DNA from: Thermomonas carbonis
Lineage (GTDB): Bacteria; Pseudomonadota; Gammaproteobacteria; Xanthomonadales; Xanthomonadaceae
Reading direction: 5' to 3'
Assembly: GCF_014396975.1 (NCBI RefSeq)
Contig: NZ_CP060719.1
Location: 1-64,000, forward strand
Length of the DNA stretch: 64,000 nt
Shown here: positions 23,221 to 28,049 of the stretch, one piece after another
Layout of the letters: each line of letters starts with the position of its first letter
How positions within the stretch are numbered: position 1 is the stretch's first letter
Notes under the pieces: model-generated
The model's database searches: none
Told to the model about the DNA's origin: nothing
Seen by the model: only the letters and a program-made list of their open reading frames with translations
Program-made: the position numbers and the translations under genes

Positions 23221-23726
23221 AGCGCCCGCTGTGCTGGTTGCTGGCCGCATCCGCCGCGCTGCCCGGAGCGGTACGCGCCGACGATTCGGGCGTGATCTCA
23301 GAGCGATGCCGCGCCGCGGGCGCACGCTACGCGCTGCAGTCCGACCCCGCTTTCCGGATCGACCTGGAGGTCGCCACGCGACCGGATACCGCATCGGACC
23401 TGCAATTGCGCCTGCATACGCCGCGCGCACAACATCTCTTCGCGTTCACCGTATCCAACGGCTACGCCACCACCCGCCTGTTGCCGTTCGCGGGCGATGC
23501 CGCTACCGGCATGGACACGCCACTGCCCGCCTTCCATGCGTTCGCCAGCGACATGACCATGCAGGTGGATCCGCCACAGGCGCACACCCAGGCACCCGTA
23601 TGGTTGTTCGTTCCGGAACTCGGCAGCATGCTCTGGTACGGGCTGCCGGAACATGCGGACACCGCGCTGCCGGAACGCGAAGCGATGCCGACCGGCCTGT
23701 TCAAACGCGTAGCCTGCACACCCTGA
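23217..23726 (+). CDS. Exported protein of unknown function
   Basis: A 169-residue protein with signal peptide MKRPLCWLLAASAALPGAVRA and two Cys at the ends of the mature part (SERCRAAGARY and KRVACTP), possibly one disulfide. Central segments LRLHTPRAQHLFAFTVSNGYATTRLLPF and WLFVPELGSMLWYGLPEH suggest a beta-rich fold. No family recognised. Last of three coupled genes, and convergent with asnB 21 bases later. Confidence 0.65.
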   Translation: MKRPLCWLLAASAALPGAVRADDSGVISERCRAAGARYALQSDPAFRIDLEVATRPDTASDLQLRLHTPRAQHLFAFTVSNGYATTRLLPFAGDAATGMDTPLPAFHAFASDMTMQVDPPQAHTQAPVWLFVPELGSMLWYGLPEHADTALPEREAMPTGLFKRVACTP

Positions 23727-23747
23727 AGGCATGCAAGCCCGAGCCGA

Positions 23748-25445
23748 TCAGATGGCCGCCACCGCCTGCTCATGCACGCCCGCCACCGCGCGACCGGACG
23801 GATCCGCCATCGTGGCGAAGCTCGCATCCCAGGCGATCGCCGCCGGCGATGAACACGCGATCGACTTTCCGCCCGGCACGGTTTCCGCCGCCGCCGGCGT
23901 CGGATAGAAACGCTCGAACACGCTGCGGTAGAAATAGGCTTCCTTGGTCTGCGGCGGGTTGAACGGGAAGCGCTTGTCTGCGGCGGCGAGTTCGCGGTCG
24001 CTGACCTGCGCCTCGGCATGCGCCTTCAGCCCGTCGATCCAGCCATAGCCGACGCCGTCGCTGAATTGCTCCTTCTGCCGCCACAGGATCGATTCGGGCA
24101 GCTGGCCGTCGAAAGCCTGGCGCAGGATGCCCTTCTCCATCCGCTGCGCGTCGCTGCGAGTCTTGTCCACCATCTTCCACTTGGCGTCGATGCGCATCGC
24201 CACGTCCAGGAATTCGCGGTCCAGGAACGGCACGCGCGGCTCCACGCCCCAGGCCATCATCGACTTGTTGGCGCGCAGGCAGTCGTAGTTATGGAGGGCG
24301 TCGAGCTTGCGGATCAGTTCCTCGTGGAACTCGCGTGCGTTCGGCGCCTTGTGGAAGTACAGGTAGCCGCCGAAGATCTCGTCGCTGCCCTCGCCGGACA
24401 GCACCATCTTTACCCCCATCGCCTTGATCCGCCGCGCAAGCAGGAACATCGGCGTGGACGCGCGGATGGTGGTGACGTCGTAGGTTTCGACGTGGCGGAT
24501 TACTTCCGGCAGCGCGTCCAGGCCTTCCTCGAAGGTGTACTCGAACCCGTGGTGCACGGTGCCCAGTGCCGCTGCCGCGATCTCCGCTGCGGCGAGATCC
24601 GGCGAACCCTTCAGGCCGATCGCGAAACTGTGCAGGCGCGGCCACCAGGCCTCGGTCTTGTCGCCGTCCTCGATGCGATGGCGCGCATAGCGCGCGGCGA
24701 CGGCCGCGACCAGCGACGAATCCAAGCCACCGGAGAGCAGCACGCCATACGGGACGTCGGTCATCAGCTGGCGATGCACCGCGGCCTCGAAGGCTTCGCG
24801 CAATTCCTGCAGCGACACATTAACGCCATCCACCGCGTCGTAGTCGCGCCACGGGCGCTCGTAATACTTCGTCAGTTCGCCGGTCGCGGTGTCGTACCAG
24901 TGGCCGGGCGGGAACTGCGCGACATCGGCGCACTCATCCACCAGCGATTTCATTTCCGAGGCCACCCGCAGGCGACCTTCCTTGTCGTGCCCCCAGTACA
25001 GCGGGCACACGCCCAACGGGTCGCGGGCAATGAGCGCGCGCCCCTTCGCCGCATCCCACAACGCGAAGGCGAAGATGCCATTGAGCCGATTGAGGAAGCT
25101 GGCCGGTTCGTCCTCCAGGTACAGCGCGTTGATCACCTCGCAGTCCGACTCGGTCTGGAAGGCATAGTCGCGGGTCAGTTCACCCTTGAGCTGGGTGTGG
25201 TTGTAGATCTCGCCGTTGACCGCCAACGCCAACTGCTTGTCCGCGGACAGCAACGGCTGCGAACCGCCGGCCGGATCGACGATGGCCAGGCGCTCGTGCA
25301 CCAGGATCGCGCCCTCGCCCAGGTACACGCCGCTCCAGTCCGGGCCGCGATGGCGCTGCCGCTGCGAGCAATCCAGCGACTGTCGTCGCAGGGCCTGGAT
25401 GTCGTCGCCGGGCTGGAGCCCGAAGATGCCGAAGATCGAGCACAT
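23748..25445 (-). CDS. asnB: Asparagine synthase (glutamine-hydrolysing) AsnB
   Basis: Makes Asn from Asp, glutamine and ATP. 565 residues, close to E. coli AsnB. Cys2 of MCSIFGIFG is the glutaminase nucleophile, followed by HRGPDWSGVYL and GEIYNHTQLK. The synthase half has the PP-loop VLLSGGLDSSLVAA and GEGSDEIFGGYLYF. The start is fixed by the required Cys2 and by GAGGA six bases upstream. The 5' leader holds a 20-codon Asn-rich peptide and a terminator, so transcription attenuation by Asn-tRNA supply is likely. The gene follows dapE in many xanthomonads; here a penicillin acylase gene lies between. Confidence 0.97.
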   Translation of the reverse strand: MCSIFGIFGLQPGDDIQALRRQSLDCSQRQRHRGPDWSGVYLGEGAILVHERLAIVDPAGGSQPLLSADKQLALAVNGEIYNHTQLKGELTRDYAFQTESDCEVINALYLEDEPASFLNRLNGIFAFALWDAAKGRALIARDPLGVCPLYWGHDKEGRLRVASEMKSLVDECADVAQFPPGHWYDTATGELTKYYERPWRDYDAVDGVNVSLQELREAFEAAVHRQLMTDVPYGVLLSGGLDSSLVAAVAARYARHRIEDGDKTEAWWPRLHSFAIGLKGSPDLAAAEIAAAALGTVHHGFEYTFEEGLDALPEVIRHVETYDVTTIRASTPMFLLARRIKAMGVKMVLSGEGSDEIFGGYLYFHKAPNAREFHEELIRKLDALHNYDCLRANKSMMAWGVEPRVPFLDREFLDVAMRIDAKWKMVDKTRSDAQRMEKGILRQAFDGQLPESILWRQKEQFSDGVGYGWIDGLKAHAEAQVSDRELAAADKRFPFNPPQTKEAYFYRSVFERFYPTPAAAETVPGGKSIACSSPAAIAWDASFATMADPSGRAVAGVHEQAVAAI

Positions 25446-25472
25446 GGGTGGTTCCTCAGGATTCTCGAAAAC

Positions 25473-25500
25473 AAAAAAAACCCGCACTTCGCAGTACGGG
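25473..25500 (-). terminator. Attenuator terminator in the asnB leader
   Basis: On the asnB transcript: 8-bp stem CCCGTACT / AGTGCGGG (one G-U pair), GCGA tetraloop, then eight U residues. It sits 28 bases before the asnB start codon and inside its leader, so it must be regulated or bypassed for asnB to be expressed. Confidence 0.88.
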
Positions 25501-25527
25501 CTCAGGGGGTTGTGCGTGTGTCGCGCG

Positions 25528-25590
25528 CTAGCCGCCGGCCCGTCCGGGTCGATTATTCAGGCGATTGTCGTTGGCGCGCAGCGAGGTCAT
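25528..25590 (-). CDS. Asn-rich leader peptide of asnB
   Basis: A 20-codon ORF, MTSLRANDNRLNNRPGRAGG then TAG, with AGGA 7 bases before its ATG. Four of twenty residues are Asn, and three of the four codons are AAT, which should be uncommon in DNA this GC-rich. It ends 27 bases before the attenuator stem. ACGGGC within its last codons (plus 25538-25543) is complementary to GCCCGT at the 5' edge of the terminator (plus 25496-25501), a candidate antiterminator. Ribosome stalling at Asn codons would couple asnB to charged tRNA-Asn, by analogy with his, thr and leu leaders. Function is inferred. Confidence 0.72.
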   Translation of the reverse strand: MTSLRANDNRLNNRPGRAGG

Positions 25591-25685
25591 GGGCCGATCC
25601 TGCACCACCGCCCGGCCGCTGACAAGCGACGTTTTCGCCTGTAACGAATACGATCCGCGATCAGACCACCACCGCGGGGAACCCG

Positions 25686-28049
25686 ATGTCCAGATGGCTC
25701 AGGCGTGGCGCACTCGCCCTGTTGGTGTTGCTCGCGACGCTCGCCCTGCTCGCCACCTGGCTGCTGCGCGGCAGCCTGCCCACGCTCGAAGGCACGCTTG
25801 CCTTGCCGGGATTGTCGGCGCCGGTATCGGTAACGCGCGACGCCAACGGCACCGTCACCATCGATGCCGCCAACGAACACGACGCCCTGCGCGCGCTCGG
25901 CTACGTGCACGCGCAGGAGCGCTACTTCGAGATGGACCTGCTGCGCCGCAACGCTGCCGGCGAGCTGGCCGCACTGTTCGGCGAGATCGCGGTGGAGAAC
26001 GACAAGCGCCATCGCCTGCATCGCATGCGCGCGCGGGTCAGCCGCGACATGGATGCCATCGCCGGACCGAAACGCAGTCAGTTGCAGGCCTACACCGATG
26101 GCGTCAACGCCGGTCTGGCCGCGCTGCGCGTGCGGCCGTGGGCCTATCTGCTGCTGCGAAAACAGCCGGCTCCTTGGCGCGTCGAGGACTCGCCGCTGGT
26201 CGGCCATGCGATGTACTTCGACCTGCAGGGCGGCGACAACGCGCGCGAACTGGCACTGTGGCGGATGCGTCCGCACTTGCCACCGGCCCTCTTCGACTTG
26301 CTGGCGCACGACGGCAGCCGCTGGGATGCGCCACTGCAAGGCGAGACGCGCGGCAATGCGGTGTTGCCCGCGCCGGACGTGCTCGACCTGCGCACATTGC
26401 CGGCAAGCGCTGCATCGCCCGCAGTTCCCGAATCACCCGGCACGCCGGGCAGCAACAATTTCGCGGTGTCCGGCGCACTGACTGCGGACGGCCGTGCGAT
26501 CCTGGCCGACGACATGCATCTGGGCCTGCGCGCGCCGAACATCTGGTTCCGTGCGCGCTTGCGCTACCCGGACGCCGCCGCAGCGGGCGGACGTGTCGAT
26601 GTGCAGGGCGTCACCCTGCCCGGACTGCCGGCGGTGGTGGTCGGCAGCAACGGCCACATCGCGTGGGGATTCACCAACAGCTACGGCGACTACCAGGACT
26701 GGAAACTCCAGACCCCTTGCGCTGCGCAGGCATCGGCAACGGGTTGCGCACGCATCACTCGCCGCGCCGAGCGCATCGACGTCGCCGGCGGCGCGCCGGT
26801 CATCCTCGACGTGGAGGAAACCGCATGGGGTCCGGTCGCGCATCGCGAAGCCGATGGCAGCGTGTTGTCGCTGCGCTGGACCGCGCACCTGCCCGGCGCG
26901 GTGAATCTGGGACTCGGAGAATTCGCCATCGCCGGCGATCTCGACCAGGCCCTGGCGATTGCGCGGCGCACCGCGACGCCAACCCAGAACCTGTTGCTCG
27001 CCGATGCGAATGGCCAGATCGCCTGGCAATTGCTGGGACCGCTGCCGCAACGCGGCGAGGCCTGCACGCTGGCGTCGACAGTGGATGCGAGTGGCCCGGC
27101 CTGCGCCGCATGGTCGACCTCGACCGCAGCCAGCCCGACGTTGAGGTCGCCCACCGTCGACCGTCTGTGGACCGCCAACAGCCGCGTCCTCGATGGCCAG
27201 GACCTGCGCCGCGTCGGCGATGGCGGCTATGCGCTGGGTGCGCGCGCGCTGCAGATCCGCGATGGCCTGCAGGCGAAGGCACGGGTCGGCGAACGCGACC
27301 TGCTCGCGATACAGCTGGATGATCGCGCGTTGTTGTTGCAACCATGGCATGCGCTGTTGCTGGAGCGTGCGAACGCGGCGCGCACACCGGCCTTGCGCGA
27401 TCTCGCAGCGGCCGCCGCGCGCTGGGAAGGGCGCGCGTCCATCGATTCGGTGAGCTTCCGCATCGTCCGCGGCTGGCGACTGGCAGTGCACAAACGCATC
27501 GCCGAAGGACTGACCTCGCCGGCACGAGACGCTTTGGGCCCGGACTTCGTCATGCCCGATTTCCCGCAACTGGAAGGCGTCGCCTGGCCGCTGGCGAGCC
27601 AGCGTCCGGCACACCTGTTGCCGCCGCCCCATGCGAGCTGGGACGCACTGTTCGAGGACGCCGCCGTGCAGGTGCGCGATGACCTCCTCGAACACGGACC
27701 ACTGGCCCAACGCACCTGGGGCGAGCGCAACACCGCGGCGATCTGCCATCCGCTCGCTGCGGCGATCCCCTTGGTTGGAAGGCGCTGGCTGTGCATGCCG
27801 GCCGATCAATTGCCGGGCGACGGCGCGATGCCGCGCGTGCAGGGCCCGGCGTTCGGTGCCTCGCAACGCATGGTGGTGTCGCCCGGTCACGAAGCCGACG
27901 GCATCCTGCACATGCCCGGTGGGCAGAGCGGGCATCCGCTGTCGCCGTTCTGGGGCGCGGGCCACGCCGCATGGGTGCGCGGCGAGCCGTCGCCATTCCT
28001 GCCGGGACCTGCGCGCCACACGCTGCGCATGCAGCCCGCAGCGGATTGA
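25686..28049 (+). CDS. Penicillin acylase family Ntn hydrolase
   Basis: A 787-residue precursor with an N-terminal membrane anchor or signal (ALALLVLLATLALLATWLLRG). The alpha chain includes ALRALGYVHAQERYFEMDLLRRNAAGELAALFG. The mature beta chain begins at Ser256 in PGSNNFAVSG, the autoprocessing nucleophile; Asn in SNGHIAWGFTNSYGD and an Arg further on complete the active site. Family members hydrolyse acyl-homoserine lactones, penicillins or other amides. The substrate is not predictable here. It is divergent from asnB and convergent with dapE, with only 1 base between stops. Confidence 0.92.
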   Translation: MSRWLRRGALALLVLLATLALLATWLLRGSLPTLEGTLALPGLSAPVSVTRDANGTVTIDAANEHDALRALGYVHAQERYFEMDLLRRNAAGELAALFGEIAVENDKRHRLHRMRARVSRDMDAIAGPKRSQLQAYTDGVNAGLAALRVRPWAYLLLRKQPAPWRVEDSPLVGHAMYFDLQGGDNARELALWRMRPHLPPALFDLLAHDGSRWDAPLQGETRGNAVLPAPDVLDLRTLPASAASPAVPESPGTPGSNNFAVSGALTADGRAILADDMHLGLRAPNIWFRARLRYPDAAAAGGRVDVQGVTLPGLPAVVVGSNGHIAWGFTNSYGDYQDWKLQTPCAAQASATGCARITRRAERIDVAGGAPVILDVEETAWGPVAHREADGSVLSLRWTAHLPGAVNLGLGEFAIAGDLDQALAIARRTATPTQNLLLADANGQIAWQLLGPLPQRGEACTLASTVDASGPACAAWSTSTAASPTLRSPTVDRLWTANSRVLDGQDLRRVGDGGYALGARALQIRDGLQAKARVGERDLLAIQLDDRALLLQPWHALLLERANAARTPALRDLAAAAARWEGRASIDSVSFRIVRGWRLAVHKRIAEGLTSPARDALGPDFVMPDFPQLEGVAWPLASQRPAHLLPPPHASWDALFEDAAVQVRDDLLEHGPLAQRTWGERNTAAICHPLAAAIPLVGRRWLCMPADQLPGDGAMPRVQGPAFGASQRMVVSPGHEADGILHMPGGQSGHPLSPFWGAGHAAWVRGEPSPFLPGPARHTLRMQPAAD

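Follow-up and report, generated by a model that had tools for sequence, protein, structure and literature searches.

A conserved asparagine-codon leader peptide and a putative transcription attenuator with a predicted leaderless start precede asnB in families of the Lysobacterales

Peptide-leader attenuators of Escherichia coli (thrL, hisL, trpL, leuL, ilvL, pheL) combine a short open reading frame (ORF) carrying codons of the pathway's amino acid, an intrinsic terminator and a second pairing partner for the terminator 5' arm, and a protector hairpin is established in all six. Asparagine genes have a described control of another kind in Firmicutes, where asn genes are under T-box control. A survey of attenuation in proteobacteria was reportedly made by Vitreschak et al. 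in 2004. The closest described leaderless example is trpL of Sinorhizobium meliloti, whose RNA is described as having the leader ORF's ATG at its 5' end (PMC7298713). No asnB or asparagine leader peptide appears in the titles and abstract beginnings of the matches listed from the open-licence literature, and asparagine goes unnamed in the main text of a genome-wide terminator study (PMC2965389) and of an actinobacterial leader study (PMC1262725).

The window, the whole 64,000-nucleotide stretch of DNA that was analysed, carries asnB on the minus strand, preceded by promoter-like hexamers, an Asn-rich leader ORF and an intrinsic terminator. From upstream to downstream, the features are:

25620..25625, minus strand: TTGTCA, -35-like hexamer, 17 bp before the -10-like hexamer
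25597..25602, minus strand: CAGGAT, -10-like hexamer that holds AGGA and ends 6 nt before the leader ATG, the spacing of the relatives
25590..25528, minus strand: leader peptide ORF, MTSLRANDNRLNNRPGRAGG then stop, 20 codons, ATG at 25590 and TAG at 25528
25552..25572, minus strand: regulatory Asn codons, AAC GAC AAT CGC CTG AAT AAT, read from the sequence
25534..25547, minus strand: region 2, antiterminator strand in the last leader codons, core ACGGGC at 25543-25538, from the duplex test
25493..25503, minus strand: region 3, terminator 5' arm, shared with the antiterminator, from the terminator scan and duplex test
25478..25488, minus strand: region 4, terminator 3' arm, from the terminator scan
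25480..25468, minus strand: T tract TTTTTTTTGTTTT of the intrinsic terminator, overlapping the 3' arm, read from the sequence
25453..25457, minus strand: GAGGA, ribosome binding site of asnB
23748..25445, minus strand: asnB, glutamine-hydrolysing asparagine synthase B, 565 aa, NF006949 at 873 bits (cut-off 499)

The asnB product also matches PF00733 and GATase domains. The upstream neighbour, a penicillin amidase family gene on the plus strand (start 25686), is divergent from asnB (start 25445), so no upstream gene could end at the leader terminator.

Re-reading of the minus strand recovers the 20-codon ORF of the original prediction, with Asn at positions 7, 9, 12 and 13 encoded by AAC, AAT, AAT and AAT, three of the four being AAT as it had stated. 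When the 300 nt before asnB are shuffled 2000 times with dinucleotides preserved, an ORF holding four or more Asn within 13 codons appears in a fraction of 0.0015 of the shuffles, and the fraction is 0.016 for three or more. The Asn codon totals in 105 leaders are AAC 339 and AAT 316; those in the window's asnB are AAC 7 and AAT 3.

Upstream regions of relatives, whose comparison the original prediction had called for, bear it out in the leader, the terminator and an antiterminator pairing with covariation. The comparison covers 80 named asnB loci and 89 upstream regions from genomes of the order, and a leader was defined as a 15-50-codon ORF in which three or more Asn fall within 13 codons, thresholds of at least four and at least five also being counted. 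The core group comprises 110 distinct regions from families f1 (the window's own), f2 and f12 (Rhodanobacter and Dyella type) and their named loci, without L074 (no leader) and L080 (a 3-Asn leader, retained among the 105 rows used below); its separation from families f7 and f9 was drawn after the leaders had been seen. An Asn-rich leader precedes asnB in 107/110 core regions (103/110 at four or more Asn, 91/110 at five or more), and the opposite strands of those regions, taken as a control, give 3/110, 0 and 0. The three core misses (L123, L130 and L134) encode AsnB proteins just 64% identical. Families f7 and f9, a set that includes one locus (L155) with 96 nt upstream only, yield 2/15 at three or more Asn, 1/15 at four or more and 0/15 at five or more, so the leader is not order-wide. 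Records not named Lysobacterales give 3/35, 3/35 and 0/35 at the same thresholds, although one of the 35, L057, proved to be L159, an f7 record of the order. A class-wide AsnB search returned mainly paralogues; its 27 further loci (L179-L205) carry an ORF with at least three Asn in four cases and with at least four in two. Those two, L188 and L194, have 5 and 4 Asn, respectively, within 13 codons upstream of distant asparagine-synthase-like genes.

Within the window's genus, 25 genomes were searched; 22 yielded an asnB orthologue together with its upstream DNA, and all 22 carry the leader. In G219, G440 and G449 the AsnB orthologue was not matched and only distant amidotransferase paralogues were found, reflecting either loss or assembly gaps. 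The asnB matches of a further genus member (G443) are two adjacent overlapping pieces (L259 and L264), pointing to either a disrupted gene or an error in sequencing. The 20-codon leader of the window is most like the leaders of genus members with 75-78% identical AsnB, and its AsnB is nearest to genus members whose leaders have 28-29 codons; the leader and its asnB may have had separate histories. Three records named Holophagales, Rhodococcus and Deltaproteobacteria (L016, L021 and L041) encode AsnB 73-80% identical to the window's, and the leader is absent there; transfer without the attenuator and misbinned contigs are both possible.

The promoter, terminator and pairing analyses used 105 leader rows, the loci that pass a loose promoter filter (TT plus a -10 hexamer 5-9 nt before the ATG), which one of the 107 leader-positive core loci (L132) fails. 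Also excluded were five rows identical to another over 250 nt (L105, L117, L127, L149 and L167), two with the leader peptide of L011 in different DNA (L169 and L170), records not named Lysobacterales, and L151, L154 and L158, removed by hand. In rows thus pre-filtered for TT, TTGC occupies the -35 place in 103/105. The spacer is 17-18 bp, and the -10-like hexamer ends 6 or 7 nt 5' of the leader ATG in 99/105, promoter figures that are partly chosen by the filter.

These elements bear on how the leader is translated. A conventional mRNA, with the promoter further upstream and AGGA as its Shine-Dalgarno sequence, could serve the same attenuator; we consider this unlikely. AGGA is indeed present 7 nt 5' of the window's leader ATG, where the original prediction had placed it, but its reading as a Shine-Dalgarno sequence is rejected by comparison of the loci, AGGA being the middle of the -10-like CAGGAT. 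Shine-Dalgarno-like 4-mers occur at the leader ATG in just 16/105 loci, as against 99/105 at the asnB ATG, and the hexamer C/TAGGAT precedes the leader ATG in 13/105. The fixed promoter-like spacing in the filtered rows likewise speaks against a distant promoter. Because the conserved -35 and -10 elements end 6-7 nt before the ATG and Shine-Dalgarno-like bases are rare, the leader mRNA is predicted to be leaderless: transcription would start on the A of the leader ATG or on a base beside it, and the leader is most likely translated from that leaderless end. A transcription start downstream of the terminator had been named in advance as a sign against attenuation; the promoter-like elements lie instead upstream of the leader. 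A simple sigma-70 scan found no promoter either at the leader or between the terminator and asnB; its stricter matching explains why the leader promoter escaped it.

The window terminator (25503-25468) lies 24 nt after the leader stop and consists of an 11-pair stem (25503-25478), a GCGA loop and a T-rich tail. The loop is as originally described, and the stem, given there as 8 bp, is longer by the scan. Taken alone, this hairpin is weak evidence, since a scan of both strands found two terminator-like sites where 1.3 per 2000 bases are expected by chance. The minimum free energy of the whole region, a stretch that includes promoter DNA, is no better than that of shuffles (z 0.94). Among the relatives, a hairpin with a T tract follows the leader in 103/105 rows, 98 of these lying 17-35 nt past the leader stop (median 26); at two loci (L027 and L030) the hairpin lacks a T tract and the antiterminator is weak. 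At L022, from Rhodanobacter thiooxydans, three near-copies of a ~60-base unit stand between the terminator and asnB (about 1780-1990).

The last leader codons repeat the sequence of the terminator 3' arm in the leader loci examined. In the window, the leader's ACGGGC is complementary to GCCCGT of the terminator 5' arm, as had been noted from the sequence, and region 2 pairs with that arm at -16.7 kcal/mol, a value equalled or bettered by 4/100 shuffles; this antiterminator is weaker than those of most relatives and still within p<=0.05. Across the 105 loci, the region 2:3 duplex has a median of -20.1 kcal/mol compared with -12.05 kcal/mol in shuffles, reaching p<=0.05 in 76/105 and lying above that threshold in 29/105. 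The cognate 5' arm beats the mean of non-cognate arms in 96/105 and is no better in 9/105. In 68 distinct rows, pairing stands at 77.5%, against 69.2% in shuffles (maximum 71.3%), and 58 double-change cells are found, against a shuffle mean of 28 (maximum 41) that ignores kinship; alignment and duplex counts are biased towards the structure used in building them. The computed pairings suggest that the leader family possesses the antiterminator expected of a peptide-leader attenuator.

The region 2 result also bears on a very improbable alternative, in which the ORF encodes a functional small protein, the hairpin ends its own transcript and asnB is separately promoted. The leader C-termini, of RARPMRVCD type, are alike across the Xanthomonas-Stenotrophomonas group, as a functional peptide might require; the codons for this conserved C-terminus are, however, region 2 itself. 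The N-termini and lengths (20-45 codons) diverge between genera while the Asn run remains constant, and no sigma-70-like promoter was found between the terminator and asnB by the scan that also missed the leader promoter. A T-box or other ligand-binding riboswitch before asnB, suggested by the T-box targets among Firmicutes asn genes, has a negligible probability, because the transcript ahead of the terminator is mostly coding leader, Rfam at gathering scores gives no match in the whole window, and Rfam at E<=1 over 23700-26700 returns one microRNA model, far under its cut-off and inside the gene.

What the leader would sense follows from its codons and from the gene content. AsnRS was found in the genome above the curated cut-off; searches for GatB and AsnA gave no match, and a second asparagine synthetase was sought with only a 28%-identical partial match as the result. 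AsnB is thus the sole asparagine synthetase found in the genome. Indirect formation of Asn-tRNA by GatCAB, a route that would uncouple tRNA-Asn charging from free asparagine, was considered and rejected from the presence of AsnRS and the failure to find GatB. With AsnRS present and neither GatB nor AsnA found, charged tRNA-Asn should track free asparagine. The Asn codon run and this gene content together argue for asparagine specificity.

We assign a probability of roughly 90% to the reading that asnB transcription is controlled by ribosome-mediated attenuation in response to charged tRNA-Asn. The attenuation proposed in the original prediction is upheld as an interpretation by the conserved leader and terminator, the covarying antiterminator, the Asn run and the gene content. 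In the proposed mechanism, RNA polymerase would start at or beside the leader ATG, and translation would begin from the extreme 5' end. When Asn-tRNA is plentiful, the ribosome would reach the leader stop and mask region 2 in the last codons, the 3:4 terminator would form, and asnB would remain untranscribed. When Asn-tRNA is scarce, the ribosome would stall at the Asn codons and leave region 2 exposed just downstream; free region 2 would pair with region 3, no terminator would form, and polymerase would continue into asnB. Judging from sequence, asnB is probably switched on just when asparagine is scarce.

The geometry of the leaders is consistent with such switching. With the ribosome front edge taken as 12 nt from the A site, half or more of region 2 stays uncovered in 100/105 loci when the ribosome sits at the last Asn codon, and half or more of it is masked in 82/105 when the ribosome stands at the leader stop. 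With a stalled ribosome and RNA folded up to region 3, at least five 2:3 pairs form in 89/105; folds with the ribosome at the stop contain the terminator in 104/105. The minimum-energy structure of the full-length RNA with a stalled ribosome keeps the terminator in 73/105 and the antiterminator in 32, so the predicted switching must be kinetic. Other attenuators are likewise decided by the order of synthesis.

Pairing of region 2 with an upstream region 1 (a protector) exceeded shuffles in 14/105 loci in a first test and in 8/105 in a refined one. The refined test finds only 1/6 of the E. coli leaders, ilvL being given a meaningless 3-base region 2, so this negative carries no weight, and the absence of a protector hairpin was dropped as a finding after these controls failed. 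In ribosome-free nascent folds, region 2 is mostly paired with region 3 in 65/105 and with upstream sequence in 38; upstream pairing is seen in the window and in 5/6 E. coli leaders. These folds make a classical protector possible in the window's leader, and the default state without translation may differ within the leader family.

Leaders of similar layout, predicted to be leaderless, are found elsewhere in the same genome:

L225 1243-1353 and L178 251-361, own genome: ilv leader, MLQRRTPLTTSPTALAATVLVLVLITSPTGAGRSGA then stop, upstream of ilvC
L206 about 1294, own genome, reverse strand: thr leader, MSRRMTTITTITTGTTCSVRSVMPG, upstream of an aspartate kinase gene of thrA type

The ilv leader has the arrangement TTGACA-18-TCTTCT-6-ATG; its region 2 falls within the final codons, and a terminator follows the stop codon. 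In the thr leader, seen in the own genome only, TTGACA and CAGAGT stand just 5' of the first ATG. Both resemble the asnB leader in placing promoter-like elements just before the ATG, and both differ from it in their amino acids. An ilv leader with TTGACA at a like distance occurs at 10/13 ilvC loci scanned within the genus, counting the own genome, the remaining three showing no ilv leader at the threshold used, and at 1/9 ilvC loci from the order's other families (L210). A his leader was looked for upstream of hisG and not found. We tentatively propose, with the balance slightly against it, that Lysobacterales share attenuators with leaderless starts (asnB, ilv and thr), asparagine being the new effector, and that part of the asnB leader family defaults to read-through without translation. 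The last part builds on the 65 nascent folds with 2:3 pairing, a group outside which the window's copy falls; such a default would be opposite to the trp and his pattern.

If the attenuator operates as predicted, asparagine joins the amino acids to which peptide-leader attenuation responds, and the leader is a likely control of asparagine synthesis in two large families with many plant-associated and environmental members. The fixed distance between promoter and ATG would offer a natural system for probing whether a ribosome can be timed against RNA polymerase by leaderless initiation. The leader family can be annotated in genomes from the present description.

Set beside the described systems, the asnB leader shares with the six E. 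coli leaders its short ORF with the pathway's codons, its intrinsic terminator and the alternative pairing of the 5' arm, and with thrL the position of region 2 within the last leader codons. It differs from them in using asparagine, in having no conserved Shine-Dalgarno sequence (the sequences of E. coli trpL, pheL and leuL carry Shine-Dalgarno-like bases upstream) and in promoter-like elements that abut the ATG. The S. meliloti trpL is alike in being leaderless, a property predicted for asnB from promoter position only, and unlike in reading tryptophan and in belonging to an alphaproteobacterium. With the Firmicutes T-box, the asnB leader would share the reading of tRNA-Asn charging and the control of an asparagine gene by a terminator, whereas the T-box binds the tRNA directly and has no translated leader. 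Peptide-leader attenuation itself is a known mechanism; asparagine as its amino acid would be new, and the predicted leaderless start would be a variant feature.
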